A stretch of 64,000 nucleotides of DNA from Micromonospora echinospora (GTDB taxonomy: Bacteria; Actinomycetota; Actinomycetes; Mycobacteriales; Micromonosporaceae): positions 5,037,001 through 5,101,000 of the forward strand of contig NZ_LT607413.1 in NCBI RefSeq assembly GCF_900091495.1. Reading direction: 5' to 3'. The translations under genes and the position numbers were made by a program. This document shows positions 13,401 through 59,057 of the stretch, one piece after another. Below the pieces are notes generated by a model. It saw only the letters and a list, made by a program, of their open reading frames with translations. It did no database searches and was not told the origin of the DNA. The first letter of the stretch is position 1, and every line of letters starts with the position of its first letter.

Positions 13401-13430
13401 CCGGGCCGGACTGCGGTGAGCCCGGCCCGG
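13401..13430 (-). terminator. Candidate terminator for the GH19 chitinase gene
   Basis: A 9-bp GC-rich stem (CCGGGCCGG at 13401-13409 pairing with 13422-13430) with a 12-nt loop lies 13 bp past the chitinase stop codon. No U-run follows, as is usual in high-GC actinobacteria. A second hairpin (CCTCGGGTGC at 13357-13366 with 13381-13390) follows 20 bp on. Confidence 0.55.
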
Positions 13431-13442
13431 AGAAGCGGTGGA

Positions 13443-14519: not shown

Positions 14520-14591
14520 GCGGTCACTCCTTCCTGGGGTCAGCGGGCCGACGAGAGGGCCACACATCGATAGGAATGACTGTAACATGTT

Positions 14592-14609
14592 CTGTTCACA
14601 AACTTTACT
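14592..14609. promoter_or_regulatory. AT-rich element upstream of the GH19 chitinase, shared with the GH18 upstream region
   Basis: CTGTT-N8-TTACT lies 73 bp upstream of the chitinase start within an unusually AT-rich island. The same half-sites with the same 8-nt spacing occur at 59413-59430 before the GH18 chitinase. A regulator-binding or promoter role is inference. Confidence 0.3.
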
Positions 14610-14634
14610 ATTCATGTTCCGCTCCGGCGGAGCG

Positions 14635-15270
14635 TCAGCCGACGATGACGACGTCGAGACGGCGTGGGCCGTGCACACCCTCGATGCGGTGCAGTTCGAT
14701 GTCGCTGGTGGCGCTCGGACCGCTGACGAAGGTGAGCGGCCGCGTCGGGTCCAGCCGGGCCAACGCCTCGGGGACGAGGCCGACGACCTGGGCGGCGTCG
14801 ACCACGCAGACGTGGTGATCGGGGATAAGCGACAGGATCCGCCGGCCCTGGCCCGGGCCCGCGTTCAGGACGAGGGTTCCGGTGTCGGCGATCGCGACGG
14901 CGCAGCCGGTGACGACGGCGTCGGCGGTGTCGAGGTCGCCGACGGCCAGCGGCGGCTGGTCGGCGAGCACGGCCGCCTCTGCTGTCGTCGCCCGCCAGCG
15001 GGTCAGCCACTCCGGTGGTGTCCCGGCGGGGACGACGAGCCGTCGTACGCCGTCGAGGGCGTCGGCGACGGCCGTCCCCACCTCGTCGGCGCCGCACCGG
15101 CGTACCCCGGCGTGGTAGTCGCGGAGCCGATCGGCGAACTGGTCGAGCAGTTCGGGATGGCCCGGGGAACGGGTGTCCGCCCGCCGGTAGCCGCGCGGCA
15201 CCTCGACCCCACCGACCTGGTCCGTCGTCGCCCGCCGGATGCGGTCGAGGATGCGCTCGCGGGCGTTCAC
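14635..15270 (-). CDS. lutC: LutC-type lactate utilisation protein (LUD domain)
   Basis: A 211-residue protein with the LUD domain fold, including VTGCAVAIADTGTLVL (the conserved TG/T loop) and LIPDHHVCVV, ending FVSGPSATSDIELHRIEGVHGPR, which is the family's C-terminal signature. The GTG start at 15270 has AGGAG 7 bp upstream and overlaps the lutB stop by 4 bp. LutABC is the iron-sulfur L-lactate oxidation complex characterised in Bacillus subtilis; LutC is its small subunit without clusters. It is the last gene of the lutABC operon here. Confidence 0.92.
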   Translation of the reverse strand: MNARERILDRIRRATTDQVGGVEVPRGYRRADTRSPGHPELLDQFADRLRDYHAGVRRCGADEVGTAVADALDGVRRLVVPAGTPPEWLTRWRATTAEAAVLADQPPLAVGDLDTADAVVTGCAVAIADTGTLVLNAGPGQGRRILSLIPDHHVCVVDAAQVVGLVPEALARLDPTRPLTFVSGPSATSDIELHRIEGVHGPRRLDVVIVG

Positions 15271-16835: not shown

Positions 16836-17581
16836 CGGGTGGCCTCCGTAGCCAGGATCTCCGCCAGGTGTACCGCCCGGATCTCGCCGCGCGGCGTCGA
16901 GGTGGTCAGCCGGGTCAGGCCGCCACCGATGTGCAGCAGGCACGACGCGTCGCCGGCGGTGACCACCCGTGCGCCGGTCGACCGGATGTGCCGCAGCTTG
17001 TCGGCCAGCATGGCCGCTGAGGTGTCGGCGTTCTTCAGCGCGAACGTGCCGCCGAAGCCGCAGCACTCCTCGGCCCCGGGCAGTTCGACGAGGTCGATGT
17101 CGCGCACCTGGCGCAGCAGCCGCAGCGGCCGGTCCGCCACCCGGGTCATCCGGAGCGAGTGGCAGGTCGGGTGGTACGTGACCCGGTGCGGGTAGCTCGC
17201 GCCGACGTCGGTGACGCGGAGGACGTCGACCAGCAGTTCGCTCAGCTCGTACGTCCGCGCGGCGACGGCCCGGGCCCGGGCGGCCAGTTCGGTGTCGCCC
17301 GCGGCCTGCGCCACCGCCGCGTGCTGGTGCCGGATCGACCCGGTGCAGGAACCGGACGGTACGACCACCGCCTCGGCGTCCTCGAACGTCTCGACGTGAC
17401 GGCGGACCAGGGGGAGTGCCTGGCGCGGGTATCCGGAGTTGACGTGCATCTGCCCGCAGCAGGTCTGCGCCGGGTCGAAGGTCACCTGATGGCCGAGGCG
17501 GCGCAGCAACCGGACGGTGGCGACGCCGACCTGTGGAGCGATGGTGTCGGCCAGGCAGGTTACGAAGAGGGCGATGCGCAC
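16832..17581 (-). CDS. lutA: LutA-type Fe-S oxidoreductase (two CCG domains)
   Basis: A 249-residue protein with two cysteine-rich (CCG) domains: TCCGQMHVNSGY near residue 42 and ECCGFGGTFALKN near residue 175, the paired motifs that bind a cluster in LutA/GlcF/HdrB-type subunits. Length is standard. It is the first gene of lutABC, and its start codon lies 6 bp from a palindromic GntR-type operator shared with the divergent regulator, so lactate-responsive repression is likely. Confidence 0.93.
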   Translation of the reverse strand: MRIALFVTCLADTIAPQVGVATVRLLRRLGHQVTFDPAQTCCGQMHVNSGYPRQALPLVRRHVETFEDAEAVVVPSGSCTGSIRHQHAAVAQAAGDTELAARARAVAARTYELSELLVDVLRVTDVGASYPHRVTYHPTCHSLRMTRVADRPLRLLRQVRDIDLVELPGAEECCGFGGTFALKNADTSAAMLADKLRHIRSTGARVVTAGDASCLLHIGGGLTRLTTSTPRGEIRAVHLAEILATEATR

Positions 17582-17586
17582 GGCCT

Positions 17587-17603
17587 AAATGGTCAGGCCA
17601 TTT
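17587..17603. promoter_or_regulatory. FadR/GntR-type operator between lutA and its regulator
   Basis: AAATGG-TCAGG-CCATTT is a perfect 6-bp inverted repeat with a 5-nt spacer, containing the TGGTC...CCA core expected for FadR-subfamily GntR regulators such as LldR. It lies 6 bp upstream of the lutA start and 40 bp upstream of the regulator start, so it could control both directions. Confidence 0.7.
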
Positions 17604-17630
17604 CGGTCGTGGTGCAAGCCCTCGAATGTC

Positions 17631-17636
17631 TAGACT
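17631..17636 (+). promoter_or_regulatory. -10 hexamer implying a leaderless transcript for the lut regulator
   Basis: TAGACT is followed by six bases and then the GTG start at 17643, the spacing seen in leaderless actinobacterial mRNAs. There is no Shine-Dalgarno sequence before the GTG, which agrees. Confidence 0.5.
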
Positions 17637-17642
17637 CGCGCC

Positions 17643-18368
17643 GTGACGCCGGAGCAGCTCTTCTCGCCGGTCGTGGGTGCCCGCCCCCACGAGGCGATCC
17701 TCGACCAGGTCGAGCGGCTGCTCAGCGCCGGCCTGATCCGCCCCGGCGACCGGCTGCCCAGTGAACGTGTCCTCGCCGAGCGGCTCGGCGTCAGCCGTCC
17801 CACCGTCCGGGAGGCGATGCGGACCCTGGAGGCGCTCGGCGTCGTCCTTCCCACGCAGACCGTCGGGCGGGGCAGCGCCGCGGTGGTCGCCGGCCGGGCC
17901 GACGCCGCCCTCGGGGCGGTGCTGCGCCTCGCCATCGCCACCAGCGGCCTGTCGGTACCGGACATCGTCGACACCCGGGTCCTGCTCGAGCGGCACGCGG
18001 TGTCCCGCCTGGCCCGCGCGCCCGAACCCCGGCTCGACGCGGCCGAGGCGCTGCTGCGGGAGATGGACGACGCCGGGCTGACCCCCGAGCGGTTCCACGC
18101 CGCCGACGTGCGGTTCCACATCGCGCTCGCCGACGCGGCCGGCAACCGCGCGGTGGCCCTGATGATGTCGTCGCTACGGCATGCGATCGAGGGGTACGTG
18201 TTGGACCTGGTCGGCGGACTGGACGACTGGCCAACCGTGTGCCGGCGGTTGCGGGTCGAGCACCGGGGCATCCTGGCCGCTGTCGTCGACCGCGACGCGG
18301 ACGAGGCGGCCCGGCGGGTCGAGGAGCACATCCGTGCCTTCCACGACGTCGCCACCGGAGTCCGCTGA
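17643..18368 (+). CDS. FadR/GntR-family transcriptional regulator of the lut operon
   Basis: A 241-residue regulator. The N-terminal winged helix-turn-helix (about 18-80) contains GDRLPSERVLAERLGVSRPTVREAMRTLEALG, the standard GntR recognition region. The C-terminal FCD domain (about 95-235) has the helical ligand pocket with metal-binding candidates Asp, His and His (ADVRFHIALADAAGN, and RRLRVEHRGILAAV). It is divergent from lutABC and shares a palindromic operator with it. By analogy with LutR and LldR it should repress lutABC until L-lactate binds; the ligand is inferred from context. Confidence 0.88.
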   Translation: MTPEQLFSPVVGARPHEAILDQVERLLSAGLIRPGDRLPSERVLAERLGVSRPTVREAMRTLEALGVVLPTQTVGRGSAAVVAGRADAALGAVLRLAIATSGLSVPDIVDTRVLLERHAVSRLARAPEPRLDAAEALLREMDDAGLTPERFHAADVRFHIALADAAGNRAVALMMSSLRHAIEGYVLDLVGGLDDWPTVCRRLRVEHRGILAAVVDRDADEAARRVEEHIRAFHDVATGVR

Positions 18369-18482
18369 GCTCCGGGCTCCGGTGCGACAGGCGCCGCCGG
18401 CCGGCTGAATCCGCTGGTACGGGAAGCGCCTGACGAACGGCCGCAGTGTGGCGCCGACCTGCTGGCGGTGCGTCTCGATGCC

Positions 18483-18511
18483 TTGACAGTCGCCGTAACA
18501 CGGTTGATACT
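18483..18511 (+). promoter_or_regulatory. Sigma-70-type promoter of the CUT1/GH43/GH42 operon
   Basis: TTGACA (18483-18488), a 17-nt spacer and GATACT (18506-18511) form a near-consensus housekeeping promoter, uncommon in such a GC-rich genome. The LacI-type operator begins exactly 11 nt after the -10, so it would cover the transcription start. Confidence 0.8.
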
Positions 18512-18522
18512 TCCAGGCTAAG

Positions 18523-18534
18523 TGAAACGATTCA
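18523..18534. promoter_or_regulatory. LacI-family operator, TGAAACGATTCA
   Basis: This 12-bp near-palindrome differs at one position from the perfect TGAAACGTTTCA before rhaM at 30311. It has the central CG typical of LacI-family operators and is placed 11 nt downstream of the -10 box, the same distance as at the rhaM promoter. It should bind the LacI-family regulator encoded at 30561-31598. Confidence 0.75.
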
Positions 18535-18580
18535 TAAAGTCGTGGAAATCACCGAGCGACGCTGACGAGCAGGGGAAACC

Positions 18581-19546
18581 GTGGACATGGCCGAGGTGGT
18601 GAGACCGTCCTCCGCACCCCCACCGGAACAGCCGCCGGACGGCGAGGCGGACCGGAGAACCCGGCGGACGCCGCGCCGAGGCGGGCGGCGGGCACATGGC
18701 GCGGTCGCCGTTCTCCTCCTGCCCTTCGTCGTGCTCTTCCTGCTCTTCTACCTTGCGCCGATCGGATACGCGCTCTACCAGTCCTTCTTCAAGGTGCAAC
18801 GCGACGGGACGTTCGGTCGCCCGGAAACCGTCTTCGGTGGCTTCGAGCAGTACGTCAGGGTCTTCGAGAACGAGGCGTTCCGGGAGAGCGTCGGCCGGGT
18901 GCTGCTGTTCGGGATCGTCCAGGTGCCGCTGATGCTGGGACTGGCCCTGCTCTTCGCCCTGCTGCTCGATTCTGGCCTGCTGCCGTTGAAGCGTTTCTTC
19001 CGGCTCGCCTACTTCACGCCGTACGCGGTGCCCGGGGTCATCGCGGCGATCATCTGGGGATTCCTCTACTCGCCCGCGCTGTCGCCGTTCAGTTGGGTCA
19101 CCGAACGCGTGCCGTTCATGTCCGGGTCGCTGGTCCTGTGGTCGCTGGCGAACATCACCACCTGGATGTTCACCGGCTACAACATGTTGATCATTTATGC
19201 GGCTCTCAAGGCGGTGCCCCAGGAGTTGTACGAGGCCGCCAGGCTGGACGGGGCCGGCGACATCCGGATCGCGCTCTCCATCAAGGTGCCCATGGTGCGT
19301 CCGGCGTTGGCACTCACCGGCGTCTTCTCCATCATTGGAACGCTACAACTCTTCACCGAACCCCAGGTCTTCCGGTCCCTGACCACTGCCGTCACCGGCA
19401 GCTACACGCCCAACCTGGTCGTCTACAGCACCTCGGTGATACCGAACTTCAACCTCGCCGCCGCGTTCTCGGTCGTCCTGGCACTGGCCACGTTCGCGTT
19501 GTCGTTCATCTTCCTCCGGATCACCCAGAGGGGGTCGTCGCTGTGA
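18581..19546 (+). CDS. CUT1 sugar ABC transporter permease (first subunit)
   Basis: A 321-residue permease with a 45-residue polar N-terminal tail, six membrane helices and the EAA loop (QELYEAARLDGAGDIRIALSIKVPMV, about 230-255) that docks the ATPase. It resembles MalF/LacF-type subunits. GTG 18581 is preceded by AGGGGA; the in-frame ATG 6 bp later is an alternative. It is the first gene after the LacI-controlled promoter, and its last bases overlap the start of the partner permease (GTGA). No ATPase gene lies in the operon, so an MsiK-like shared ATPase is expected. Confidence 0.9.
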   Translation: MDMAEVVRPSSAPPPEQPPDGEADRRTRRTPRRGGRRAHGAVAVLLLPFVVLFLLFYLAPIGYALYQSFFKVQRDGTFGRPETVFGGFEQYVRVFENEAFRESVGRVLLFGIVQVPLMLGLALLFALLLDSGLLPLKRFFRLAYFTPYAVPGVIAAIIWGFLYSPALSPFSWVTERVPFMSGSLVLWSLANITTWMFTGYNMLIIYAALKAVPQELYEAARLDGAGDIRIALSIKVPMVRPALALTGVFSIIGTLQLFTEPQVFRSLTTAVTGSYTPNLVVYSTSVIPNFNLAAAFSVVLALATFALSFIFLRITQRGSSL

Positions 19547-48501: not shown

Positions 48502-48568
48502 CGTCCTGAGTCCCTGATCCGTCTGCCGTACGTGGCGAGGGCGAGCGCACTCTGCGACACCGGCCGAA

Positions 48569-49504
48569 TCATGCGGGTCGTGGTTCCTTGCGCGCGTCGA
48601 TGGTGTTGTACGGGACGCCGGCGGTCTCGGTCATGAACTGCAGCAGTGTCTGAGCCGGGAGCGACAGACGGCGTTGCCGTGGCCACCACACCCGGACGTC
48701 CCGAACGGCGTCGGGATGATCGATGTCGCGGACATGCAGGTTGTCGGTGCGGGACACGTCCATGGCCAGTTGGGTGGTGACCCCGACACCAAGGCCGGCG
48801 CCGACCAGCGCGACGAGTGACTGCGGGTTGCTCACCTGATACACCAGCGGGGGCGGCTGCCGGAGCGAGAACCAGAGAGGGTGGGTCTGGAGGCCGTCCG
48901 TGTCGTACCGGCCGGTCATGATGAGCGGATGCTTGAGGAGCTGGGCGGGGGCCAGCGGCTCAGCAGATCTGGCCAGTGGGTGGTGCGCGGGCGTCACCAC
49001 CTTGAACTTCTCCCGCCACATCGGGTGGCTGCGAAAGACCGTGTCCGACAGTGGCGGCGTCGTCTGGCGGAGGAACAGCTGGACGTCGCCCTGGATCGCC
49101 GCGTCGTGGAGGTGGGCGCCGCCCAGCTCGACCAGCCGGACCCGGATCATCGGATACACCGCCCGGAAGGCTTTCAACAGCTCGGGGACGTAGCCGGCCG
49201 TCGCGCTCGGGTAGGTGCCCAGGCGTACCTCCCCCCGCCTGCGCCCGACCGACTCGCTGACGTTGCCTCGGGCCGACTCGATCTCCCCGAGGATCGCATG
49301 GGCGTGGACCAGCAGCGCGCGACCCCGGTCGGTGAGGCCGATGGGACGACGGCCGCGGTCGAAGAGCGCCACGCCGAACTCCTTCTCGAGCGCGGCGATC
49401 TGGGCGCTCACGGTGGGCTGGGACACGCCCAGCTCCACGGCGGCTGCGGCGAACCCGCGCCGGTCCGCCACCGCTACGAAGGTCTCCAGCCAGCGAGTTT
49501 CCAC
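48569..49504 (-). CDS. LysR-family transcriptional regulator
   Basis: A 311-residue LysR regulator with N-terminal winged helix (WLETFVAVADRRGFAAAAVELGVSQPTVSAQIAALEKEFGVALFDR) and a periplasmic-binding-like effector domain (about 90-300). GTG 49504 was chosen because AGGAGG lies 6 bp upstream and the family starts there. It is divergent from the sugar-acid operon at 49659, and a 7-bp perfect inverted repeat lies between them. LysR proteins usually activate the divergent operon on binding a pathway intermediate, so this protein is the likely switch of that operon. Confidence 0.92.
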   Translation of the reverse strand: METRWLETFVAVADRRGFAAAAVELGVSQPTVSAQIAALEKEFGVALFDRGRRPIGLTDRGRALLVHAHAILGEIESARGNVSESVGRRRGEVRLGTYPSATAGYVPELLKAFRAVYPMIRVRLVELGGAHLHDAAIQGDVQLFLRQTTPPLSDTVFRSHPMWREKFKVVTPAHHPLARSAEPLAPAQLLKHPLIMTGRYDTDGLQTHPLWFSLRQPPPLVYQVSNPQSLVALVGAGLGVGVTTQLAMDVSRTDNLHVRDIDHPDAVRDVRVWWPRQRRLSLPAQTLLQFMTETAGVPYNTIDARKEPRPA

Positions 49505-49534
49505 CCGTGTCCTCCTGTGCGGTTGTTTCATCAG

Positions 49535-49554
49535 GATTTCCTATAGAGGAAATC
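49535..49554. promoter_or_regulatory. Candidate LysR operator
   Basis: GATTTCC-N6-GGAAATC is a perfect inverted repeat in the LysR/enolase-superfamily intergenic region. It contains the ATTTCC...GGAAAT dyad of the T-N11-A type expected for LysR sites and lies 31 bp from the LysR start. Confidence 0.7.
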
Positions 49555-49658
49555 AATGTTACTGGCGATTGCTATTCGGCCTGGCCAGGCCCGTCTTACG
49601 TTGGCCGCGATCGACGAGCGCGGCAAGGCGCTCGCAGAGCCGACGAGGACCAATCCGC

Positions 49659-50789
49659 ATGCCTGTCATCACCCGGATCGAGGTCGCCACCGCCGTCGTG
49701 CCCCTACCACGGGTCACGGGCATCGCGCGACGGACGATCACCAATCGTGAGTACACGCTCGTCCGGATCACCGCCGACGACGGCGTGACCGGAATCGGGT
49801 TCTGCTACCCCGGACACAGCGGGGCCAACATCGCCACGCTGGCGGTGCGCGACCTGCTGGCCCCCGTCCTGTTGGGCCGGGACGCCGACCTCATCGAGGG
49901 TGCCTGGCAGGCGATGTACCAGGAGGCCCTGCTCCACGGTCGGGTGGGTTCGGTCGTCCGTGGCCTGTCCGCCCTCGACATCGCGCTGTGGGACCGCAGT
50001 GCCCGCGCTGCCGCCATGCCTCTGCACAAGTACCTGGGTGGCCACTCCGACGAGGTCCCGGCATACGCCTCCGGCGGCTACTACCTCGACGGAAAGGGTG
50101 TCGACGGGCTCGCGGCGGAGCTTCAGGGCTACCAGGACCTCGGTTTCTCCGCCTTCAAGATCAAGGTCGGGCGGGTCGGGGTCGAGGAGGACCGGGCTCG
50201 GATCGCCGCGGCACGAGAGGTCGTCGGCCCCGAGGGGGTGCTGATGCTCGACGCCAACAACGCGTGGAGTGACCTGCCGAGTGCCGTCCGCGCGTTGCGT
50301 CGCTGGGAGGAGTTCGACCCCTACTTCATCGAGGAGCCGTTCGGGCCCGACGACATCGAGAACCACGCGCGGCTGGCGAAGGCGACGTCGATCACCGTCG
50401 CCACCGGCGAGATCGAGGCCGGACGCTGGCGGGCGAAGAGCCTTCTGGACGCCGAGGCCGCGGTGATCCTCCAGTGCGACGCGGCCGTCTGCGGTGGCCT
50501 GAGCGAACTGCGGAAGATCGCCGACCTGGCCAGCGCCTACGGGGCGTCGCTCGCCCCGCACTGGTTCCACGACCTGCACGCGCCGATGGTGGGCGCGTTT
50601 CCGGCCGCGACCTTCGTCGAGTACTTCGTCGGTAACGACATCCACAACATCGGCGCGCTGCTCGATCGTCAGCTCGACGTCGCCGGCGGTGTCATCCGAC
50701 TGCACCAGACACCAGGGCTGGGGTTCGGCTTTTCCGAGGAGGCCCTCGACCGCTACCTGGTCGGTCCGTGGGAGGTCGTGGAGAAATGA
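49659..50789 (+). CDS. Enolase-superfamily dehydratase/racemase (mandelate racemase/muconate lactonizing group)
   Basis: A 376-residue enolase-superfamily enzyme of the mandelate racemase subgroup. The active-site set is complete: Lys167-x-Lys169 (FKIKVG), metal ligands Asp198 (LDAN), Glu225 (IEEP) and Glu251 (TGEIE), and the Asp274/His301 dyad (QCDAAVCGG, APHWFHDLHA). That Lys and His-Asp pair on opposite faces is the layout of sugar-acid dehydratases and mandelate racemase. ATG 49659 follows CGAGGA. It heads an operon with an aldehyde dehydrogenase, DUF2090 aldolase, FGGY kinase and sugar importer, so an acid-sugar dehydratase is the best guess. Confidence 0.88.
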   Translation: MPVITRIEVATAVVPLPRVTGIARRTITNREYTLVRITADDGVTGIGFCYPGHSGANIATLAVRDLLAPVLLGRDADLIEGAWQAMYQEALLHGRVGSVVRGLSALDIALWDRSARAAAMPLHKYLGGHSDEVPAYASGGYYLDGKGVDGLAAELQGYQDLGFSAFKIKVGRVGVEEDRARIAAAREVVGPEGVLMLDANNAWSDLPSAVRALRRWEEFDPYFIEEPFGPDDIENHARLAKATSITVATGEIEAGRWRAKSLLDAEAAVILQCDAAVCGGLSELRKIADLASAYGASLAPHWFHDLHAPMVGAFPAATFVEYFVGNDIHNIGALLDRQLDVAGGVIRLHQTPGLGFGFSEEALDRYLVGPWEVVEK

Positions 50790-52279
50790 GCGACACCAGC
50801 ACCGGGAAGGCCACCGTGACCACCAGCGCCCTGACCCTGCGCAACCTCGTGAACGGGACGTACGTCGAGGGCGCGGCCGGCACGGACGTGTCGACGAACC
50901 CGGCGGACTCCGCCGACGTCGTCGCGGTCGTGCCCCGGATGTCCGCGGCCGAGGCCCGGTCGGCCGTCGACGCCGCCGCCGCGGCGTTGCCGGCCTGGCG
51001 GGACACGCCGAGCGTGCTACGGGGCAAGCACCTGTTCGCCGTCGCCGCGCTCATCCGGGAGCGGGCCGACCAGTTCCGGGACACGATCTGCCGCGAGATG
51101 GGCAAGACCACCGCCGAGGCGACGATCGAGGTCGAGCGCAGTGCCGAACTGGTGGAGTTCTTCGCCGGCGTCGGTCGTCTCCCGCACGGTGACGTCGTGC
51201 CGGACCGCCGCCCCGGTGTCGTGACCACGACCCGACACGAGCCCATTGGTGTCGTCCTCGCCATCACCCCGTGGAACGACCCGCTGATGGTGCCGGTCCG
51301 CAAGGCCGCGCCCGCGCTGATCCGGGGCAACACCGTGGTGCTCAAGCCCAGCCCGGACACGCCCGCCGTGGCGTTGCTCCTCGCCCAGGTGATGCAGGAC
51401 GCCGGACTGCCCGCCGGGACCTTCAACACGGTCACCGGCGACGTGGCGGAGATCGGCGACACCCTGGTCCGCGACCCCCGGATCGCGGGGATCACGTTCA
51501 CCGGCTCCACCGCGACCGGCCGCCACCTCGGCCAGGCGATCGCGGGCACCGGCACCCGGCTGCAGACGGAGATGGGCGGCAAGAACGCGGCGGTGATCAT
51601 GGCCGACGCCGACGTCACCCGGGCGCTCGAGGTGCTGCTGCCGTCGATCTTCGGCCAGACCGGTCAGCGGTGCACCGCGGTGAGCCGTCTCCTCGTCCAC
51701 CGGGACCGCTACGACGAGGTCGTGGAGCAGATCGTCGCCCGCGCCGGCGCGGTCGCCGTCGGACCGGCCGCCGACGCGGCGACGACCATGGGCCCGGTGG
51801 TGAACCAGCGCCAGCTCGACAAGGTCCTCACCATGATCGGCACCGCCCGCGAGCAGGGCGCGGTCATCGCCGCCGGCGGAGAGCGACTCATCGACGGCGC
51901 GGCGGCCCGTGGCTGCTTCGTCCGGCCCACCGTCGTCACGGGGGTCAGCGCCGACATGCGGATCTGGACCGACGAGGTGTTCGGTCCGGTCGTCGCGGTC
52001 ATGCCGTTCGACGACCTGGACGAAGCGATCGGCATCGCCAACGAGACGACATACGGACTGGCGTCGGGCATCTTCACGAACGACCTGGCCGCAGCGGAGG
52101 CGTTCGTCCGTGGCATGGAGACCGGCCAGGTCGTCGTCAACCTCGCCCCCAGCGGCTGGGACGTGCACCAGGCGTTCGGCGGGTTCAAGGAGTCCGGTTC
52201 CGCGTTCAAGGAGCACGGTCTGGACGGGCTCGCCTTCTACACCCGCGTCAAGACCGTCGCCGTGTCGGCCACCCCTTGA
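50786..52279 (+). CDS. NAD(P)-dependent aldehyde dehydrogenase (semialdehyde dehydrogenase-like)
   Basis: A 497-residue ALDH. Asn164 (ITPWND), Glu262 (QTEMGGKN) and nucleophile Cys296 (GQTGQRCTAVSR) form the catalytic set; FTGSTATGRHLG is the cofactor loop. The sequence is closest in feel to alpha-ketoglutaric semialdehyde dehydrogenases of pentonate/hexarate pathways. ATG 50786 overlaps the stop of the enolase-superfamily gene (ATGA). In this operon it would oxidise a sugar-derived aldehyde, either a keto-acid semialdehyde or the aldehyde released by the aldolase next to it. Confidence 0.92.
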   Translation: MSDTSTGKATVTTSALTLRNLVNGTYVEGAAGTDVSTNPADSADVVAVVPRMSAAEARSAVDAAAAALPAWRDTPSVLRGKHLFAVAALIRERADQFRDTICREMGKTTAEATIEVERSAELVEFFAGVGRLPHGDVVPDRRPGVVTTTRHEPIGVVLAITPWNDPLMVPVRKAAPALIRGNTVVLKPSPDTPAVALLLAQVMQDAGLPAGTFNTVTGDVAEIGDTLVRDPRIAGITFTGSTATGRHLGQAIAGTGTRLQTEMGGKNAAVIMADADVTRALEVLLPSIFGQTGQRCTAVSRLLVHRDRYDEVVEQIVARAGAVAVGPAADAATTMGPVVNQRQLDKVLTMIGTAREQGAVIAAGGERLIDGAAARGCFVRPTVVTGVSADMRIWTDEVFGPVVAVMPFDDLDEAIGIANETTYGLASGIFTNDLAAAEAFVRGMETGQVVVNLAPSGWDVHQAFGGFKESGSAFKEHGLDGLAFYTRVKTVAVSATP

Positions 52280-52295
52280 GAATCGGAGCTACCCG

Positions 52296-53201
52296 ATGAG
52301 CACGTTGTACATGCTTGCCTTCGACCACCGTGCCTCGCTGACGAAGATGTTCGGCGAGCACGGGGGCACCTACCAGGGGCGGCCGGTCGACTACTCCGCG
52401 CTCAAGCGCGTCATCTGGGAGTCGTTGCCGCTGGCGATCGAGGCACGCGGGCTGCAACGGTCGACCCTCGGCGTCCTCGTCGACGAGGAGTACGGTGCCG
52501 ATGTCGCCCGGGAGGTCGCCGGAGCGGGTCTCGTGCTGGCCATGCCGGCCGAGCGCAGCCTGCAACGGGTCTTCGAACTCGAGTACGGCGACCAGTTCGA
52601 CGTACACATCGAGGCGTTCGACCCGGACCACGTGAAGGTGCTCGCCATCGCCGACGAGACGCTGCCGGCCGACCTGCTGGCCGTCTCGATGTCCCGGCTC
52701 CGGCAGCTCTCGGAGTGGGTGTCCCCACGGCGTCAGCGGCTGATGCTGGAGCTCCTCGTGCTCCCTTCCGCCGCGCAGTTGGAGCGGATCGGCGGCGACC
52801 GGGAGAGGTTCGACACCGAGCTTCGCCCGCAGATCATGGTGGACACGATCCGTGCCTACCAGCAGGCTGGCATCGAAGCGGACATCTGGAAGGTCGAGGG
52901 CCTCGCCACCGTAGACCAGTACCAGGCGGTTGCCGCACAGGCGCGGGCGGACGGCCGCGACGACGTCGAGTGCATCGTTCTCGGCCGTGGTGCCGACGAC
53001 GAGCAGATCCTGCGCTGGCTGCACGCTGCCGGGCAGGCCGACGGCTTCACCGGCTTCGCGATCGGCCGCAGCACGTGGGCACCGAGCCTGAAGGGGCTGA
53101 TGACCGGCCGACTCGACCCGGAGCAGGCCCGCGCGGAGATCGCCGGCCGATTCGTGTCGTACGTCGACACCTTCGAGGGCAGGACCGGGGACCTCCCATG
53201 A
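52296..53201 (+). CDS. DUF2090 family aldolase (IolC C-terminal/LacD-like)
   Basis: A 301-residue TIM-barrel protein: LYMLAFDHRASLTKMFG at the N-terminus is the DUF2090 signature, found as the C-terminal half of fused IolC proteins and distantly like tagatose-bisphosphate aldolases. GVLVDEEYGADVAR, MLELLVLP and IWKVEGL (a likely Schiff-base Lys) are further motifs. In inositol catabolism the related domain splits 5-dehydro-2-deoxyphosphogluconate; here the kinase gene that follows, overlapping by 4 bp (ATGA), would supply the phosphorylated substrate. ATG 52296 follows CGGAGC. No other inositol genes are seen. Confidence 0.8.
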   Translation: MSTLYMLAFDHRASLTKMFGEHGGTYQGRPVDYSALKRVIWESLPLAIEARGLQRSTLGVLVDEEYGADVAREVAGAGLVLAMPAERSLQRVFELEYGDQFDVHIEAFDPDHVKVLAIADETLPADLLAVSMSRLRQLSEWVSPRRQRLMLELLVLPSAAQLERIGGDRERFDTELRPQIMVDTIRAYQQAGIEADIWKVEGLATVDQYQAVAAQARADGRDDVECIVLGRGADDEQILRWLHAAGQADGFTGFAIGRSTWAPSLKGLMTGRLDPEQARAEIAGRFVSYVDTFEGRTGDLP

Positions 53202-54649
53202 CCAGAGCCGCCGACGAGCTCTATCTCGGCGTCGACGTCGGCACGACGTACACGAAGATCCAGATCGTGGACCCCGACGGGAACACCGTCGCGCTGAGTT
53301 CTCGAGCCACCCCCTGGGAGCGTACGGCGGGGGTCACGATCCTCACCCCGGCCCGACTGCTCGACGAGGTACTCCAGCACCTCGAAGCGGTGCTGGACGA
53401 CCACCCGGCGGGCCGGGTGGTCGGCATCGGCCTCACCGGGTTCGGCGAGACCGGCGTGCCACTGGGAGCGCGGGGCGACGTCCTGGCCCCCGGCCTGCCC
53501 TGGTACGACGTGCACGGCGCCGACGAACTCGACCGGCTCGCCGTCACGCTCGGCTTGGAGGCGTTCACCGGCAGCAGCGGCCTGCCGGTGAACCTCAAGC
53601 CGTCGCTGTTCAAGTTCGCCTGGTTGGCCGAGCGGTACACCCCGCTGTCGCAGTGGGTCCGGTGGCTCAGCATCCAGGAGTGGCTGGCGTTCCAGTTGAC
53701 CGGAACGATCGCCGGCGAGGCGTCGCTGGCCAGCCGCACCGGACTGCTCGACGTCGTCTCCGGCCGCCAGTCGGAGGAGACCAGCATCTGGGCGGGCGTG
53801 CCGCCGACCCTGCTGCCCGACCGGGTGGGGGCGGGAACCTCGATCGGCCGGGTGACGACCGGGCCGGCCAGGATCCACGGCGCGCACGTCACCATCGCCG
53901 GCCTCGACCACCTCGTGGCCGCGGTCGGGCTGGGCGCCCTCGACGACGCCGATCTCGTCGACTCGTGTGGCACCGGCGAGGCGATCATCCGGCACCTTCC
54001 CGAGCGCCCGTGGAACGCGCTCAACCTGGTGGATGCCGTGAACCGCGAGCTCTCCGTCGGCCGGGACGTGTTCCCCGGACGGCTGCAGGCCATGGCCAGC
54101 GTGCGCAGCGGGATCGGCATGGGACGGTTCCTGAAGCTCATGGGGATCCAGCGCGACGAGTTGCCGGCGCTGGACGCGGCGGCACTCGCCGTGGTTCCTC
54201 GGGTCGACGGGCCCCGCGTCTCGAACGTCTGGCTCGACCAGGCCCAGCTCACCAACATCGACTACGAACCGGACCGGGCGGAGGTGTGGCGAGCCGTCAT
54301 CGAGGCGGTGCAGGAACGCGCCGCCTACCTGGTCCACCAACTCGACGTCGTGGCGGGGATCCCCGCACGGCGACGCATCATGACCGGCGGCGGGTTGACC
54401 AGCCGCGCGGTCCGCGAGATCAAGCGCCGTTATCTCGGCGACTACGAACTGCCGGACATCTCCGAGGCCACGAGCCTCGGTGCCGCGCACTTCGCCCGGA
54501 TGGCCGCCGGGGCCGTCCCCCCGATCCGGATCACCGGACCATCGTCCGACTCGGCAGTCGACACCGCCCCCGACCACCCCCACCGTGCGCCCGTCGACCC
54601 TGCCGATCACCTCGCCAGCGTGCCTGGCGGCAGAGAAGATCAGAGGTAA
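53198..54649 (+). CDS. FGGY-family carbohydrate kinase
   Basis: A 483-residue sugar kinase: LGVDVGTTYTKIQIVD (phosphate-1), GIGLTGFGETGVPLG, VDSCGTGEAIIRH (phosphate-2) and RRIMTGGGLTSRAVREIK (adenosine motif). It does not match gluconate, xylulose, glycerol or rhamnulose kinases closely in its substrate loops (TPWER, PWYDVHGAD), so the sugar is open. The C-terminal 35 residues are a Pro/Asp-rich tail (about 445-483) beyond the usual fold. ATG 53198 overlaps the aldolase stop. It likely phosphorylates the keto-deoxy sugar acid or polyol-derived ketose for the DUF2090 aldolase. Confidence 0.88.
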   Translation: MTRAADELYLGVDVGTTYTKIQIVDPDGNTVALSSRATPWERTAGVTILTPARLLDEVLQHLEAVLDDHPAGRVVGIGLTGFGETGVPLGARGDVLAPGLPWYDVHGADELDRLAVTLGLEAFTGSSGLPVNLKPSLFKFAWLAERYTPLSQWVRWLSIQEWLAFQLTGTIAGEASLASRTGLLDVVSGRQSEETSIWAGVPPTLLPDRVGAGTSIGRVTTGPARIHGAHVTIAGLDHLVAAVGLGALDDADLVDSCGTGEAIIRHLPERPWNALNLVDAVNRELSVGRDVFPGRLQAMASVRSGIGMGRFLKLMGIQRDELPALDAAALAVVPRVDGPRVSNVWLDQAQLTNIDYEPDRAEVWRAVIEAVQERAAYLVHQLDVVAGIPARRRIMTGGGLTSRAVREIKRRYLGDYELPDISEATSLGAAHFARMAAGAVPPIRITGPSSDSAVDTAPDHPHRAPVDPADHLASVPGGREDQR

Positions 54650-54652
54650 GGC

Positions 54653-55885
54653 ATGCGACACCACCGACTCGGCGTCAGCATCTGCGCCGTCACCGCACTC
54701 GCCCTCCTCGCTGGCTGCGGCGGCTCCGCCGGCAGCGACAGCGACGGCCCGGAGACCATCACCTTCGCCGCGTCGATGCTCGGTGAGCCGACGCGCGGCC
54801 CGCAGCTGACGGCCCTGCTGGAGAAGTTCAACGCCAGTCAGGACGACTACGTCATCGAACCGGTCTCCATCCCGTTCGCGTCCTTCGGCACGACCATCTT
54901 CACGCAGCTCGGCCAGGGCAAGGGCCCCGACGTGATCGCGTTCGACCAGATGAACATCTACGAGGCCGCCGACGCGAAACTGATCCGTCCGCTGGACGAC
55001 GTCGTGAAGGGCATCGACCTCACCGCGGCCTCCGAGTCGCTCAAGATGGACGACCACCAGTGGGGCGTCCCGCTCGACGTCTCCAACTACGCGCTCATCT
55101 ACAACCCCGACCTCGTCAAGCAGCCGCCGACGACGTTCGAGGAGTTCAAGAAGGTCGCCCGGGAGCAGACCACGGCGGGCCGGTTCGGGTTTGCGTTCCG
55201 GACCACCCAGGCCGAGGAGGCCGGTGTCTGGTACGACCTGAGCAACTTCGTCTACGGCGCGGGCGGCGCGTGGAGCGACGACGCCGGCAACCCCACGATC
55301 AACAGTCCGCAGACGGTCGCCGGGGTCAAGGCGTTCGCCGAGGTCTACCAGGCCGGCGTCATCCCGAAGGGCTCGACCGCCGCCGACTACCGCCGGATGT
55401 TCGCCACCGGCAAGGTTGCGATGATGATCGACAACGGCGGGATCCCGACCGTGCTCCGGGGCACCAACCCGGACATCCCGATCGCCGCCGCGCCGGCGCC
55501 CTTCCCGACGCGGAGCATCGGCCAGGTGATGGCCGCCATCGGCATCAACGCCAACACCAAGCACCCCGAGGCGGCCGAAGCGTTCGTTCGCTGGTTCCTC
55601 GGGAAGGAGGCGCAGACGACCGTCCAGGGCTTCCTCGGCGGAAGCCTCGTCGCCACCGGTGTGGAACGGACCACGGAGGAGCTCGCCAAGTCGCCGTTCG
55701 TCACGGTGTTCGACGCGCAGAGCGACCACGCGCGCTCGTTCATCCCGACCGGGCTCGAGGTCGAGACGCCGCGGATCCGCTCCGCGGTGGTGCAGGCGGT
55801 ACTCAACGCGCTGCAGTCAGGCGGCGACATCCAGCAGGCACTCGACGGAGCGCAGGACAAGGCCAAGCAGATCGCCGGCGAATAG
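54653..55885 (+). CDS. Sugar-binding lipoprotein of the sugar-acid operon transporter
   Basis: A 410-residue CUT1 solute-binding protein with lipobox LAGC (Cys20). The mature part is a family 1 fold (TFAASMLGEPTRGPQLTALLEKFNAS, GQGKGPDVIAFDQMNIYEAADAKLI, VPLDVSNYALIYNPDLV). It has fewer aromatic residues than the oligosaccharide binders at 20.5 and 34.4 kb, which fits a smaller ligand. It starts 3 bp after the kinase stop, with AGAGGTAAGG as ribosome site. A hairpin at 55898-55921 separates it from the permeases. Confidence 0.9.
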   Translation: MRHHRLGVSICAVTALALLAGCGGSAGSDSDGPETITFAASMLGEPTRGPQLTALLEKFNASQDDYVIEPVSIPFASFGTTIFTQLGQGKGPDVIAFDQMNIYEAADAKLIRPLDDVVKGIDLTAASESLKMDDHQWGVPLDVSNYALIYNPDLVKQPPTTFEEFKKVAREQTTAGRFGFAFRTTQAEEAGVWYDLSNFVYGAGGAWSDDAGNPTINSPQTVAGVKAFAEVYQAGVIPKGSTAADYRRMFATGKVAMMIDNGGIPTVLRGTNPDIPIAAAPAPFPTRSIGQVMAAIGINANTKHPEAAEAFVRWFLGKEAQTTVQGFLGGSLVATGVERTTEELAKSPFVTVFDAQSDHARSFIPTGLEVETPRIRSAVVQAVLNALQSGGDIQQALDGAQDKAKQIAGE

Positions 55886-55897
55886 CAGCCCAGGGGA

Positions 55898-55921
55898 GGG
55901 GCGGCGCCCCCGCGCCGCCCC
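55898..55921 (+). terminator. Intercistronic hairpin after the binding-protein gene
   Basis: A 10-bp perfect stem (GGGGCGGCGC at 55898-55907 with 55912-55921) and CCCC loop, extendable through a bulge by GGGGA/TCCCC, lies 12 bp past the binding-protein stop. As between ngcE and ngcF, it probably lowers permease expression relative to binding protein. Confidence 0.65.
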
Positions 55922-55991
55922 CACTCCCCGCCCCCGTCCCGCCGGTCCACCCCCGGGCCTACGCCCGTTCCCCCGACGAAACGAGTCACAC

Positions 55992-56942
55992 ATGTCCGTA
56001 CTCGACGTGACATCGACGCGCCGCCGCCAGCGTGTCGGCGGGCCGAAACCGGCACCGCGACGACGGCCGGGTGAGCGTCTGCTGCCCTATCTCCTCGCGG
56101 CGCCGGCCGTCATCTACCTCGTGGCGTTCCAGGGCATCCCGTTCCTCCAGCAGGTCGTGCTGAGCTTCTCCGACACGAGCCTGCTCAACCCCACCAGCAT
56201 CGACCTGATCGGCCTGGACAACTACCGCGATGTCTTCGCCGACCCCGGGTTCCTCGACGCCGTTCGCGTGACGATCGTGTACGTCGTCGCCTGCGTCGCC
56301 GGAACGATGCTCCTCGGCCTCGGCACGGCGCTCCTGATGAACCGTAAGTTCAAGGGCCGCGGCCTCGCGCGATCACTGCTGATCATCCCTTGGGCGGCGC
56401 CGGCCGTCGCCGTCGCGCTCGTCATGGCGTGGATCTTCAACCCCCAGTACGGTGTGGCGAACGACGCCCTCGGCGGCGTCGGCCTCGCGCCCAGCGACGG
56501 GCAGTGGCTCGACAGCACGTCCCGAGCCCTGGGCACGATCCTCTTCATCACGATCTGGCAGCTGTTCCCCTTCACCGCCGTGATCATCCTCGCCGCGCTT
56601 CAGGCCGTTCCCGAGGAACTCCACGAGGCGGCGCTGCTCGACGGCGCCACCTGGACACAACGCTTCCGGGCCGTCACCTGGCCGGTCATCCAGCCCACGA
56701 TCTCGATCCTGGCCCTGCTCATGACCATCTGGTCGATCCGCCGCTTCGAGCTGATCTGGCTGATGACCCAGGGCGGACCGGCGGGGAGCACCAACACCCT
56801 GGTCATCGACCTCTATCGACGGGGCTTCGTCGAGCGTGAGCTCGGGCATGCGGCCGCCGTCGGGTTCGTCGGCGTCGTCATCTCGTTGGCGATCACCGTC
56901 ATCTTCTTCGTTGTCAGCAACCGAGCAGAGAAGTCGGCCTAG
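55992..56942 (+). CDS. CUT1 sugar ABC transporter permease (MalF type)
   Basis: A 316-residue permease with a basic N-terminal tail (RRRQRVGGPKPAPRRRPGERLLPYLL) and six helices. The EAA loop is EELHEAALLDGATWTQRFRAVTWPVIQPT. ATG 55992 is preceded by only a weak purine run, so translation may be modest. It ends 2 bp before the partner permease gene. No ATPase follows. Confidence 0.92.
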   Translation: MSVLDVTSTRRRQRVGGPKPAPRRRPGERLLPYLLAAPAVIYLVAFQGIPFLQQVVLSFSDTSLLNPTSIDLIGLDNYRDVFADPGFLDAVRVTIVYVVACVAGTMLLGLGTALLMNRKFKGRGLARSLLIIPWAAPAVAVALVMAWIFNPQYGVANDALGGVGLAPSDGQWLDSTSRALGTILFITIWQLFPFTAVIILAALQAVPEELHEAALLDGATWTQRFRAVTWPVIQPTISILALLMTIWSIRRFELIWLMTQGGPAGSTNTLVIDLYRRGFVERELGHAAAVGFVGVVISLAITVIFFVVSNRAEKSA

Positions 56943-56944
56943 CC

Positions 56945-57784
56945 ATGCGTCATGGAATCAAGCACCGGATGGGGCTGACCGGAGCCGTCACGATCGTGCT
57001 CGCCCTCGTCGGTCTCGCCGTGTTCCCGTTCTACTGGATGCTCGTCACCGCCACCCGTACCGACGACGAGCTGTTCGGCGACCGACCGCCCCTGTTGCCA
57101 GACCTGTCGGGGTTGAGCACGTTCGCCGACGTGTTCAGCGACACGACCATCGTCGGCTGGCTCACCAACAGCGCCATGATCGCCGCTGGGACGACGCTCC
57201 TGACGATGATCCTGGCCGTGCCGATCGCCTACGCGATGTCCCGGTTCAGCTTCCGCGGCAAGGTGCTCGTCGGCATCGGACTCCTGGTGACCCAGATGCT
57301 CCCCGAGGCGGTGCTCGTCGTGCCGCTGTTGTCCGTGTTCAAGACGCTCGATCTGCTGGACAGCCGCAGCGGGCTCGTACTCGGCAACACCGCCTTCGTG
57401 CTGCCGGTCGTGACCTGGATCCTCAAGAACGCCATCGACACCGTGCCACGCGACCTCGACAACGCGGCCAAAATCGACGGCTGCTCACCGGTCAGCACCC
57501 TGTGGCGGGTGATCGTTCCCATCGTGGCGCCCACCATGGCAGCCGGAGCTGTCATCGCGTTCTTCCACGGCTGGAACGAGTACATCTTCGCGGTGAGCTT
57601 CCTCACCGACCCCGGACTCCAGCCGATGTCCGTGGGACTCGCCGGATTCATCGGGGAGATCAGCACACCGGTCCAGACCGTCATGTCCGTCGGAATGATC
57701 TACACGCTGCCCGCCGTGGCTCTCTACCTGCTCCTGCAGCGTTACATCGTGTCGGGCATGGCCGCTGGAAGCGTCAAGGGCTGA
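56945..57784 (+). CDS. CUT1 sugar ABC transporter permease (MalG type)
   Basis: A 279-residue permease: MALVGLAVFPFYWMLVTATRT-like helix 1 region, EAA loop RDLDNAAKIDGCSPVSTLWRVIVPIVAPT, and the typical end IVSGMAAGSVKG. It is the last gene of the eight-gene operon that begins with the enolase-superfamily enzyme. Its start lies 2 bp after the preceding stop. Confidence 0.93.
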   Translation: MRHGIKHRMGLTGAVTIVLALVGLAVFPFYWMLVTATRTDDELFGDRPPLLPDLSGLSTFADVFSDTTIVGWLTNSAMIAAGTTLLTMILAVPIAYAMSRFSFRGKVLVGIGLLVTQMLPEAVLVVPLLSVFKTLDLLDSRSGLVLGNTAFVLPVVTWILKNAIDTVPRDLDNAAKIDGCSPVSTLWRVIVPIVAPTMAAGAVIAFFHGWNEYIFAVSFLTDPGLQPMSVGLAGFIGEISTPVQTVMSVGMIYTLPAVALYLLLQRYIVSGMAAGSVKG

Positions 57785-58043
57785 TGGCGCGCCGGCCCGC
57801 ACCGCCGCTGACGGGCGAGCCAACCCCAGCCCGCGGTGGCAGGGGGCACCGCGACGCCGTCGACGAGGGAACGCGGACATGGCTCGTCGACGGCTCACGG
57901 CTGCCGCGATGCGGGACGGGTCGCCGGGGTTCGGGTCCCGGACGAGGGCGGTGGCGGTGCCGAGGTTCGCGCCGGGCCGTACGAACCGGGGAAGATCGGC
58001 ACCGCCCTGACCACCCGCGACACACCTGTCGCGCAGGGGGTTG
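57785..58043. other. Gap between two convergent genes, nothing definite
   Basis: About 260 bp of high-GC sequence. Short stretches can be translated to plausible protein-like text (for example PYEPGKIGTALTTRDTPVAQGVV), but there is no start with ribosome site and no recognisable domain. It may be a decayed gene end or simple spacer. Confidence 0.4.
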
Positions 58044-59057
58044 TCAGACCGCGCGGGCCACGCAGATCCTGGCGTCGAGGCGGTGCCCGGCCTCGTAGAG
58101 CATGTAGGAGACGCCGCCGTCGGTGCCGAACGTCGGCGCCGCCACCCGACCGTTGTCGGACGCGATCGGCCGGTGGAACACTCCGAGGTGGACCTCACGG
58201 TCGAAGTTGTTGCCGACCTCGGTCAGGTACATGTTGCCGCTGTTGCCGTGGTACGCGACGTACGTGGTGCCGTTGCGCTTGAGCAGGTGCGGCGCGGAGA
58301 TGTCGGTGAGCCCGTCGCCCGACGGTGACACCAGCGGGTTCGGGTCGAACTGCCAGCCGCTCCACCCGTTCGGCGACCAGCCCCAGAAGATCTTCCGGCT
58401 GCCCCAGCTGCTGCTCCCCGCGGTGTTGCCCATGAACACCATCACGTAGCGGTTGCCCTTGCCCGCCACCGAGTGCTCGAAGACCCGCGCGTACGAGGTC
58501 TCGCTGGTGCCGGGCACCAGTCTGGTCGACAGGATCGGCGTCTCGTCGGTGAAGTGGATGCCGTCGGTCGACCGGGCGACCCGGGTCGTGTAGTTCTCGC
58601 CGTGGAAGTACAGGTAGAACTGCCGGGTCGGCGCGTCCCAGATGACGTGCGGCGACGACACGTGGCTCACCGTCGTGGTCGGCAGCTGCCGGTCGACGAT
58701 GGGGTTGTTGGGGTACTCGGTGTAGGGGCCTTCGAGCCGGTCGGCGTAGGCGAGGCAGATCCCGCCGGGCGCGTCGTGCGGGGCGTAGTAGAGGTAGTAG
58801 CGGCCGCGATAGTTACTGATCTTGTCGTAGACGCCGCGCACGCACGGGAAGATGAACTCACCGGTCGGGTTGTAGCGCAGCGGTGTGGCGAACGCGTCGC
58901 GCACGTACCGGTAGTTGGGGAATCCGGCTGGTCCGGCGAGCGCTGGCGTGGCCGTCGCGGCGAGGCCGGCGCCGGTGGTCGCGGTCGCGACACCGGCGGC
59001 CGCCGCGCCACGCAGCAGCGCGCGTCGGGAGAAGAAGCCTTCAGGGGTACGCGTCAT
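58044..59057 (-). CDS. Tat-exported five-bladed beta-propeller protein (GH43/GH32-like)
   Basis: A 337-residue exported protein. The N-terminus FFSRRALLRGAAAAGVATATT is a twin-arginine signal ending ALA (about residue 41). The rest has the repeated strand/turn pattern of GH43/GH32-like propellers: GRYYLYYAPHDAPGG, HVIWDAPTRQFYLYFHGEN, ARSTDGIHFTDETP, TDISAPHLLKRNGTTYVAYHG. The classic GH43 base motif (HDP) is not evident, so enzymatic activity is uncertain. It is convergent with the sugar-acid operon, and its upstream region has an AT-rich palindrome (59226-59237). It may act on the polymer whose product that operon takes up. Confidence 0.7.
   Translation of the reverse strand: MTRTPEGFFSRRALLRGAAAAGVATATTGAGLAATATPALAGPAGFPNYRYVRDAFATPLRYNPTGEFIFPCVRGVYDKISNYRGRYYLYYAPHDAPGGICLAYADRLEGPYTEYPNNPIVDRQLPTTTVSHVSSPHVIWDAPTRQFYLYFHGENYTTRVARSTDGIHFTDETPILSTRLVPGTSETSYARVFEHSVAGKGNRYVMVFMGNTAGSSSWGSRKIFWGWSPNGWSGWQFDPNPLVSPSGDGLTDISAPHLLKRNGTTYVAYHGNSGNMYLTEVGNNFDREVHLGVFHRPIASDNGRVAAPTFGTDGGVSYMLYEAGHRLDARICVARAV

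Follow-up and report, generated by a model that had tools for sequence, protein, structure and literature searches.

In a 64,000-nucleotide stretch of the 7.78 Mb Micromonospora echinospora genome (contig NZ_LT607413.1; hereafter the window), a minus-strand LysR-type regulator gene and seven plus-strand genes form an eight-gene catabolic cassette at 48569-57784. The plus-strand genes run, over 49659-57784, in the order enolase-superfamily enzyme (ENO), aldehyde dehydrogenase (ALDH), DUF2090 aldolase, FGGY kinase, substrate-binding lipoprotein (SBP), MalF-type permease and MalG-type permease (Table 1). A preliminary description of this DNA had placed an eight-gene operon at 49659..57784. The count of eight is right if the LysR gene is included, but only seven open reading frames (ORFs) lie between those coordinates, and the LysR gene, correctly described as divergent, lies outside them. 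All eight genes have Pfam matches that agree with the identities first given to them.

The four enzyme genes are packed as tightly as was claimed, with 4 bp overlaps at ENO/ALDH and DUF2090/FGGY and a gap of 16 bp between ALDH and DUF2090. Gaps of 3 bp (FGGY-SBP) and 2 bp (MalF-MalG) follow further downstream, and the sole larger gap, 106 bp between SBP and MalF, makes that junction looser than those among the enzymes. The SBP_bac_1 domain and the two MalFG-type permeases identify a CUT1 importer. The operon itself encodes no MalK-type ATPase; three OB_MalK matches lie at other places in the genome. Inositol genes are likewise missing among the 13 genes profiled with NCBIfam, out of 17 called at 43233-63645, in keeping with the preliminary description.

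Table 1. Positions of the cassette genes and associated features in the window.
Feature	Position	Strand	Basis
LysR-type regulator, divergent from operon	48569..49531	-	Pfam HTH_1 + LysR_substrate
Inverted repeat GATTTCCT-N4-AGGAAATC, LysR-ENO intergenic, weak candidate for a regulator site	49535..49554	.	position only
ENO, mandelate-racemase-type enolase superfamily, predicted sugar-acid dehydratase	49659..50789	+	Pfam MR_MLE_N + MR_MLE_C
ALDH, closest to 2,5-dioxovalerate / alpha-ketoglutaric semialdehyde dehydrogenases	50786..52279	+	Pfam Aldedh, NCBIfam
Stand-alone DUF2090 class I (Schiff-base) aldolase, predicted	52296..53201	+	Pfam DUF2090
FGGY-family carbohydrate kinase	53198..54649	+	Pfam FGGY_N + FGGY_C
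CUT1 substrate-binding lipoprotein (SBP)	54653..55885	+	Pfam SBP_bac_1
CUT1 permease, MalF type	55992..56942	+	Pfam BPD_transp_1
CUT1 permease, MalG type	56945..57784	+	Pfam BPD_transp_1
Extent of the cassette shared by two Micromonospora genomes	48561..57795	.	blastn vs L021

Conservation and movement of the cassette

When the window is compared with a 19.9 kb locus (L021) from another genome of the genus (G298), blastn returns a single match at E up to 1e-10, with 94.0% identity over 9250 columns, that ends 8 bp past LysR and 11 bp past MalG. The flanks of L021 are unrelated to those of the window. In G298, the window's left flank lies approximately 265 kb from the cassette (93% identical) and its GH43-like gene approximately 52 kb away (89% identical). 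Cassette and backbone have thus diverged equally, and the cassette has changed neighbours and is not a recent arrival between these two genomes. An empty site was sought in G298 (L155) and not found; the left flank there runs on into unrelated genes. The GH43-like gene (58044-59057) and the chitinase, aldo-keto reductase and amidohydrolase genes were dropped as pathway members, because the conserved block ends at LysR and MalG and the flanks lie far off in G298. The 58044-59057 product is a Tat-signal-like secreted protein whose GH43 match is below threshold (23.6 of 32.2 bits), and nothing related to it turns up in the PDB at E values up to 1.

A search with the cassette DNA finds the cassette complete in 2 of 160 Micromonospora genomes (its own and G298); DUF2090 of at least 96% identity occurs in 2 of 300 family genomes, the 14 other genomes with a match having at most 42%, and 5 of 394 genomes of the class, its own included, have an ENO match with an E value of 1e-100 or less. 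One further genome, G284, holds a 980 bp ENO piece (88% identical in DNA) as its only cassette remnant. On contig C546 of G284 (locus L156, 1667-2725), an ENO ORF that is 93% identical and lacks the first approximately 49 residues has no other cassette gene within 20 kb and is likely a remnant.

To look further afield, we used an FGGY alignment of 26 rows to scan the genomes of 84,980 species, which gave 197 relatives; the loci of the best 80 of the 197 were used. Three of these hold the operon: L034 (Rhizobiales isolate AFS059704), L035 (Nitratireductor indicus) and L036 (Ruania rhizosphaerae). In L034 and L035, the full gene set is followed by an extra gene, which is MalK-like in L035 (Pfam was run on L035). 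The L036 operon encodes similar enzymes (ENO 68%, ALDH 67%, DUF2090 49% and FGGY 46% identical) and a poorly similar importer (SBP 24%, MalF 30%, MalG 32%). A divergent LysR gene stands beside ENO in all four loci (L021 94%, L034 60%, L035 58% and L036 61% identical). The identical order in L021, L034, L035 and L036, the last three with different surroundings, means that the arrangement is more than chance, and because L036 has a different importer, the core is LysR-ENO-ALDH-DUF2090-FGGY, with an exchangeable importer. The cassette is thus a real, conserved and mobile combination of known enzyme families. The combination is apparently undescribed, and we found no pathway with this gene set in the open-licence literature searched, as the preliminary description had supposed; it is not a new kind of system. 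DUF2090 is named in two papers of that literature, one proposing the inositol aldolase and the other on Pseudomonas extremaustralis. With its exact ends, the cassette cleanly exemplifies how a catabolic operon moves as a whole between Actinomycetes and Rhizobiales.

Enzyme families and a predicted sugar-acid route

ENO belongs to the mandelate-racemase-type enolase superfamily, with both Pfam domains over cut-off, the metal ligands and the D-H dyad. Residues K167, K169, D198, E225/E226, E251, D274 and H301 are conserved in 28 of 28 alignment rows. The roles of the KxK motif, the D/E/E metal ligands and the D-H dyad are taken to be those usual in this superfamily, in part after the description of SCO3480 in PMC9706016. 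The nearest solved chain is the L-talarate/galactarate dehydratase 2pp0 (184.5 bits), and with 230.6 bits ENO falls short of the curated cut-off (500 bits) of the corresponding model, NF047820.

Relatives of ENO on plasmids (54-57% identity; six records fetched, of which three with annotation were used) stand next to pyruvate-type aldolase families: the dihydrodipicolinate synthase (DHDPS) family in two of the three and an HpcH/GarL-like aldolase in one. The Roseivivax and Paraburkholderia plasmids combine the ENO relative with DHDPS-family proteins and IlvD/Edd dehydratases, and the Bosea plasmid with the HpcH/GarL-like aldolase, an ALDH resembling succinate-semialdehyde dehydrogenase, IlvD/Edd and a CUT1 importer. 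Such neighbourhoods are the setting of 2-keto-3-deoxy acids. In Jiangella (L127, L128), an ENO of 65% identity occurs with a divergent LysR gene (51% in L127, 49% in L128) and an oligopeptide-type importer, without the other cassette enzymes; L127, the one of the two profiled with Pfam, also has a BNR_4 protein beside ENO. These plasmid and Jiangella contexts mark ENO as a movable front-end enzyme of keto-deoxy-acid pathways. Searches for DUF2090 in the two Jiangella genomes gave no match, an empty result that is weak evidence of absence. Among four genomes with ENO relatives, DUF2090 was found in none and FGGY as weak matches only in three, which again shows little.

The DUF2090 protein matches its Pfam family (PF09863) at 96.7 bits, against a gathering cut-off of 27 (scored on 52302-53201 as submitted), and reaches 42.8 of 184 bits with its best NCBIfam model. 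As first described, it is separate from IolC: it is a stand-alone protein of 301 aa that scores 38.8 of 600 bits against NF047869, with neither the fusion to a kinase nor iol genes among the profiled neighbours. R12, K114, E152, K199, G257 and R258 are invariant across 41 relatives and are present in three IolC proteins as well. K199 sits at what we take to be the Schiff-base lysine position of LacD. A profile of the DUF2090 relatives retrieves LacD aldolases and 8tnf from the PDB, and the catalytic Lys and Glu of LacD, as given in an excerpt of PMC9007349, align with K114 and E152. The operon-type clade (at least 49% identity, 11 rows shown) has an AIRND-like segment after K114 where most others have VRYNP, and residue 118 is not Arg in this clade and in the three IolC rows, as opposed to Arg in most other rows shown. 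The change after K114 suggests a different substrate, without indicating which. A second DUF2090 copy is encoded in the genome at 226518-227414.

The kinase matches FGGY_N (99.4 bits, cut-off 28.8) and FGGY_C (28.4 bits, cut-off 27), and its D237, presumably catalytic, is conserved in 26 of 26 alignment rows. It falls below every NCBIfam FGGY cut-off compared (XylB, FucK, GlpK, LsrK, GntK, RhaB), the best being XylB at 98.6 of 380.25 bits; its best solved relative is the gluconate kinase 3gbt (55.9 bits). ALDH, which has E262 and C296 (residues that we take to be catalytic) in 9 of 9 alignment rows, scores best against the 2,5-dioxovalerate and alpha-ketoglutaric semialdehyde (KGSA) dehydrogenase models NF052305 and NF042993. 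Its earlier label, 'semialdehyde-type', fits these best scores (451.1 and 447 bits), which are far under the cut-offs of 750 and 770.

At 59 of the 80 FGGY loci, an aldolase gene of one family or another lies no more than 6 kb from FGGY: class II at 31, LacD-type at 14, DhnA-type at 11 and DUF2090 at 5, some loci counting twice. A PfkB gene is found within the same distance at 50 of the 80, including both non-operon DUF2090 loci (L039, L042), at none of the three operon loci and, by Pfam, not among the window's operon genes. When the count is limited to loci with 6 kb on both sides of FGGY, PfkB is present at 21/21 class II, 2/3 LacD, 2/8 DhnA and 1/4 DUF2090 loci, and the three DUF2090 loci without it are the operon loci. 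The common module thus consists of a kinase, a second kinase and a bisphosphate aldolase, for which we infer a tagatose-like function from the gene families, and the operon replaces the second kinase by ENO and ALDH. With PfkB absent and ENO and ALDH in its stead, a carboxylate at C1 would make a second phosphate unnecessary. Two FGGY relatives, P0170 (771 aa) and P0212 (767 aa), are one-protein fusions of an FGGY kinase and a DeoC/LacD aldolase. Five others (L066, L072, L100, L101, L110) lie on contigs titled Bifidobacterium breve, titles that may be wrong; for the rest, the sources are mostly Actinobacteria and Chloroflexi of soil and water.

In the PDB, the SBP matches nothing closer than distant maltose-type proteins, the best of them at 56.9 bits. 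A MalF-MalG stretch of at least 1.5 kb with 67-69% DNA identity to the cassette is present in 25 Micromonospora genomes, and the nearest transporter paralogues in the genus have 45-46% (SBP) and 55-57% (MalG) identity. All four paralogue loci examined (L157-L160) contain, as one operon and in this order, SBP, MalF, MalG, an ENO (29-31%), a gene for 397-403 aa and an ALDH-family gene, adjoined by an IclR-type gene. In L157, the middle gene scores as a member of the fumarylacetoacetate-hydrolase family (FAA_hydrolase, 26.2 bits, cut-off 23.9), and the ENO reaches 295.2 of 311 bits against galactonate dehydratase, so that the importer's kin are weakly linked to acid sugars. L157 and L160 also adjoin xylan-type genes (esterase, arabinofuranosidase, GH10). 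As for regulation, the 181 intergenic bases hold four inverted repeats with arms of at least 7 nt, among them the repeat in Table 1, which may therefore have arisen by chance. Comparing seven intergenic regions by eye gave no common regulator motif beyond short A/T-rich pieces, and searches for terminators and promoters no useful excess over shuffled sequences.

We tentatively propose, at a little under even likelihood, an Entner-Doudoroff-like route in which a sugar acid is converted by ENO to a keto-deoxy acid, by FGGY to a phosphate ester and by DUF2090 to pyruvate and a triose phosphate. The compound taken up by the CUT1 importer would be an aldonic acid or something closely derived from one. 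ENO, judging from its family and conserved residues, would take the proton beside the carboxylate and eliminate water to give a 2-keto-3-deoxy acid, and FGGY would phosphorylate the far hydroxyl, or may act ahead of ENO, like gluconokinase. DUF2090 would then form a Schiff base through K199, a class I mechanism predicted from the conserved residues, and cleave C3-C4 to pyruvate and triose phosphate. ALDH may act ahead of ENO, turning a free aldehyde into the acid, or may oxidise an aldehyde product, and LysR would sense the substrate or an early intermediate. The plasmid neighbourhoods of the ENO relatives, the frequent aldolase partners and the aldolase fusions of the FGGY relatives, the replacement of PfkB by ENO and ALDH, the ENO and ALDH-family genes beside the importer's paralogues, the relationship of the kinase to 3gbt and the observation that the eight genes behave as one unit argue for this route. 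It equals the order of import, dehydration, phosphorylation and retro-aldol cleavage in the preliminary description, which had set ALDH at the end, here one of its two possible places; nothing was found in support of polyol or lactone substrates. That the cassette is a self-contained, horizontally moving Entner-Doudoroff-type pathway for a sugar acid outside all described pathways, with a DUF2090 of the LacD superfamily shifted from dihydroxyacetone phosphate (DHAP) to pyruvate chemistry and joined to an FGGY kinase and an enolase-superfamily dehydratase, we regard as possible and somewhat doubtful.

If true, one branch in each of four enzyme families, none of them with a function assigned here, would acquire one, DUF2090 would be more than an inositol enzyme, and the cassette would supply a sugar-acid pathway complete in itself, importer and regulator included. 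The bacterial fate of L-2-keto-3-deoxygalactonate (L-KDGal) is called unresolved in an excerpt of PMC11219438.

Competing routes

Several observations weigh against the sugar-acid route. Within this superfamily, LacD and YihT, both characterised, and the aldolase proposed for IolC-DUF2090 all yield DHAP and an aldehyde instead of pyruvate; the cleavage of a keto-deoxy acid is therefore a tentative assignment, and rivals with DHAP chemistry are serious. G257-R258, at the end of the barrel, presumably forms the site for the phosphate of DHAP. The route leaves ALDH without a necessary task, and its substrate is a prediction. The argument from the transporter holds for some of the family only, as L036 has a different importer. 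Furthermore, among loci with 6 kb on both sides, PfkB is also absent from 6 of 8 DhnA, 1 of 3 LacD and 6 of 7 loci with no recognised aldolase, and some of these relatives have no ENO either, so that the operon is not special in this respect, and the scan covers the best 80 of 197 FGGY relatives.

An IolC-like route is the strongest of these rivals, unlikely as we consider it. Here, FGGY would phosphorylate a 5-keto-hexonate beside the ketone, DUF2090 would split the product into DHAP and malonate or tartronate semialdehyde, ALDH would oxidise this aldehyde acid, and ENO would be a front-end epimerase or ring-opening enzyme and not a dehydratase. The DUF2090 part of IolC is proposed, in an excerpt of PMC9007349, to be the 2-deoxy-5-keto-gluconate 6-phosphate aldolase. 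The residues shared with the three IolC proteins and their common lack of Arg at position 118 are consistent with this, as are the best scores of ALDH, which are with dehydrogenases of aldehyde acids, and locus L030, where a DUF2090/FGGY pair occurs with a 40% identical ALDH and shikimate-dehydrogenase-type and cyclase-type genes. However, the cleavage requires a hydroxyl at C3, which would be lost if ENO dehydrated the acid at C2-C3, and ENO would therefore need a reaction unseen in its nearest characterised relative. In addition, IolC is only a distant score, and the cassette has no inositol or ketogluconate genes.

All four enzymes would also work in sequence, and with the known DHAP chemistry of LacD and YihT, if FGGY acts on an imported ketose, DUF2090 yields DHAP and a free aldehyde, ALDH makes a small acid (glycerate or tetronate) and ENO dehydrates this last to pyruvate or a keto acid. 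The 4 bp ENO/ALDH overlap, seen here and in the unrelated operons of L022 and L031, would suit this order, and most FGGY relatives have ketose-type neighbourhoods, where PfkB is joined by class II or LacD-type aldolase genes. We nevertheless consider it improbable: FGGY must phosphorylate beside the ketone where the two-kinase relatives imply the far end, the ENO relatives adjoin genes for C5-C6 keto-deoxy acids, and no enolase-superfamily enzyme that dehydrates a C3 acid is known to us.

Less probable still, to the point of being doubtful as a serious candidate, is an anhydro-sugar route like dauABCD, in which ALDH would act on 3,6-anhydrogalactose or a comparable sugar with a free aldehyde and ENO would be a cycloisomerase, FGGY a keto-deoxy-acid kinase and DUF2090 the aldolase. 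An excerpt of PMC5698469 describes the same four reaction types as clustered in the Dau pathway, and the seven best PDB matches of ENO include DauB (5olc, 163.5 bits) and 5xd7, a cycloisomerase of L-anhydrogalactonate. DauB and galactarolactone cycloisomerase have the pocket residues Asp87 and Trp298 in common (same excerpt); these align, as mapped by hand, with L92 and F303 of ENO, which are invariant and nearly so, respectively, in the 28-row alignment. This difference from the DauB pocket lowers the anhydrogalactose reading. Within the cassette we recognised neither an agarase nor a carrageenase nor an anhydrogalactosidase, and the GH43-like neighbour is outside the conserved block.

The galactarate, gluconate and erythritol routes, raised in the preliminary description as known pathways to which the genes might belong, were checked and rejected, as ENO and ALDH score far below the curated models and the cassette has no KdgD, GarL, HpcH or Edd; an inositol route was rejected on gene context.

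Comparison with known and related systems

The Dau pathway of Zobellia galactanivorans (dauA-dauD, for 3,6-anhydro-D-galactose) clusters a dehydrogenase, an enolase-superfamily enzyme, a kinase and an aldolase, as the cassette does, according to the excerpt of PMC5698469. It differs, as far as that excerpt goes, in its kinase and aldolase families and in the DauB pocket residues; the cassette has no anhydrogalactosidase or sulfatase genes, and an ABC importer in place of the transporters listed for Dau. The tagatose-type module of Actinobacteria and Thermomicrobia-like genomes (L039, L042 and the class II loci) shares the FGGY and aldolase families, with a DUF2090 of 43% identity in L039 and L042; the cassette lacks its PfkB and has ENO and ALDH added. 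In myo-inositol catabolism, DUF2090 likewise goes with a kinase, presumably acts on the kinase product and has the catalytic residues conserved. The cassette kinase is of FGGY type, unlike that of IolC, which we take to be of PfkB type; it is unfused and accompanied by ENO, without other iol genes.

A second operon in the same genome (L022; G000:C1:217000-236900, operon at 7698-19462) has the same enzyme classes (ENO-ALDH-kinase-CUT1-DUF2090), and its ENO and ALDH genes also overlap by 4 bp. However, its ENO (31%), ALDH (33%) and DUF2090 (35%) are distant from those of the cassette, its kinase is of the PFK/pyrophosphate-dependent PFK family (277.3 bits, cut-off 273), and two Zn-dependent alcohol dehydrogenase-like genes and a LacD-type aldolase stand alongside. 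Similar operons in L134, L031, L032 and L033 share the type: a DeoR-type regulator, ENO (29-31%), ALDH (31-34%), kinase, importer, Zn-dehydrogenase-like genes and DUF2090 (33-35%). In L022 and L134, the LacD-type aldolase gene is divergent from the operon and followed by a membrane protein that is TauE-like by eye. Locus L030 (G164:C4, 9988-17432), with DUF2090 (33%), FGGY (36%), the ALDH and the shikimate-dehydrogenase-type and cyclase-type genes mentioned above, Zn-dehydrogenase genes and a CUT2-like importer, is possibly a carbocycle or cyclitol route with the same kinase-aldolase-ALDH end.

Finally, the non-phosphorylating sugar-acid pathways (galactarate, L-lyxonate and Weimberg-type) have ENO and a KGSA dehydrogenase-like ALDH in common with the cassette, for which an acid substrate is likely as well. 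Where those pathways use KdgD/KdaD-type dehydratases and HpcH or DHDPS aldolases, the cassette has a kinase and DUF2090.

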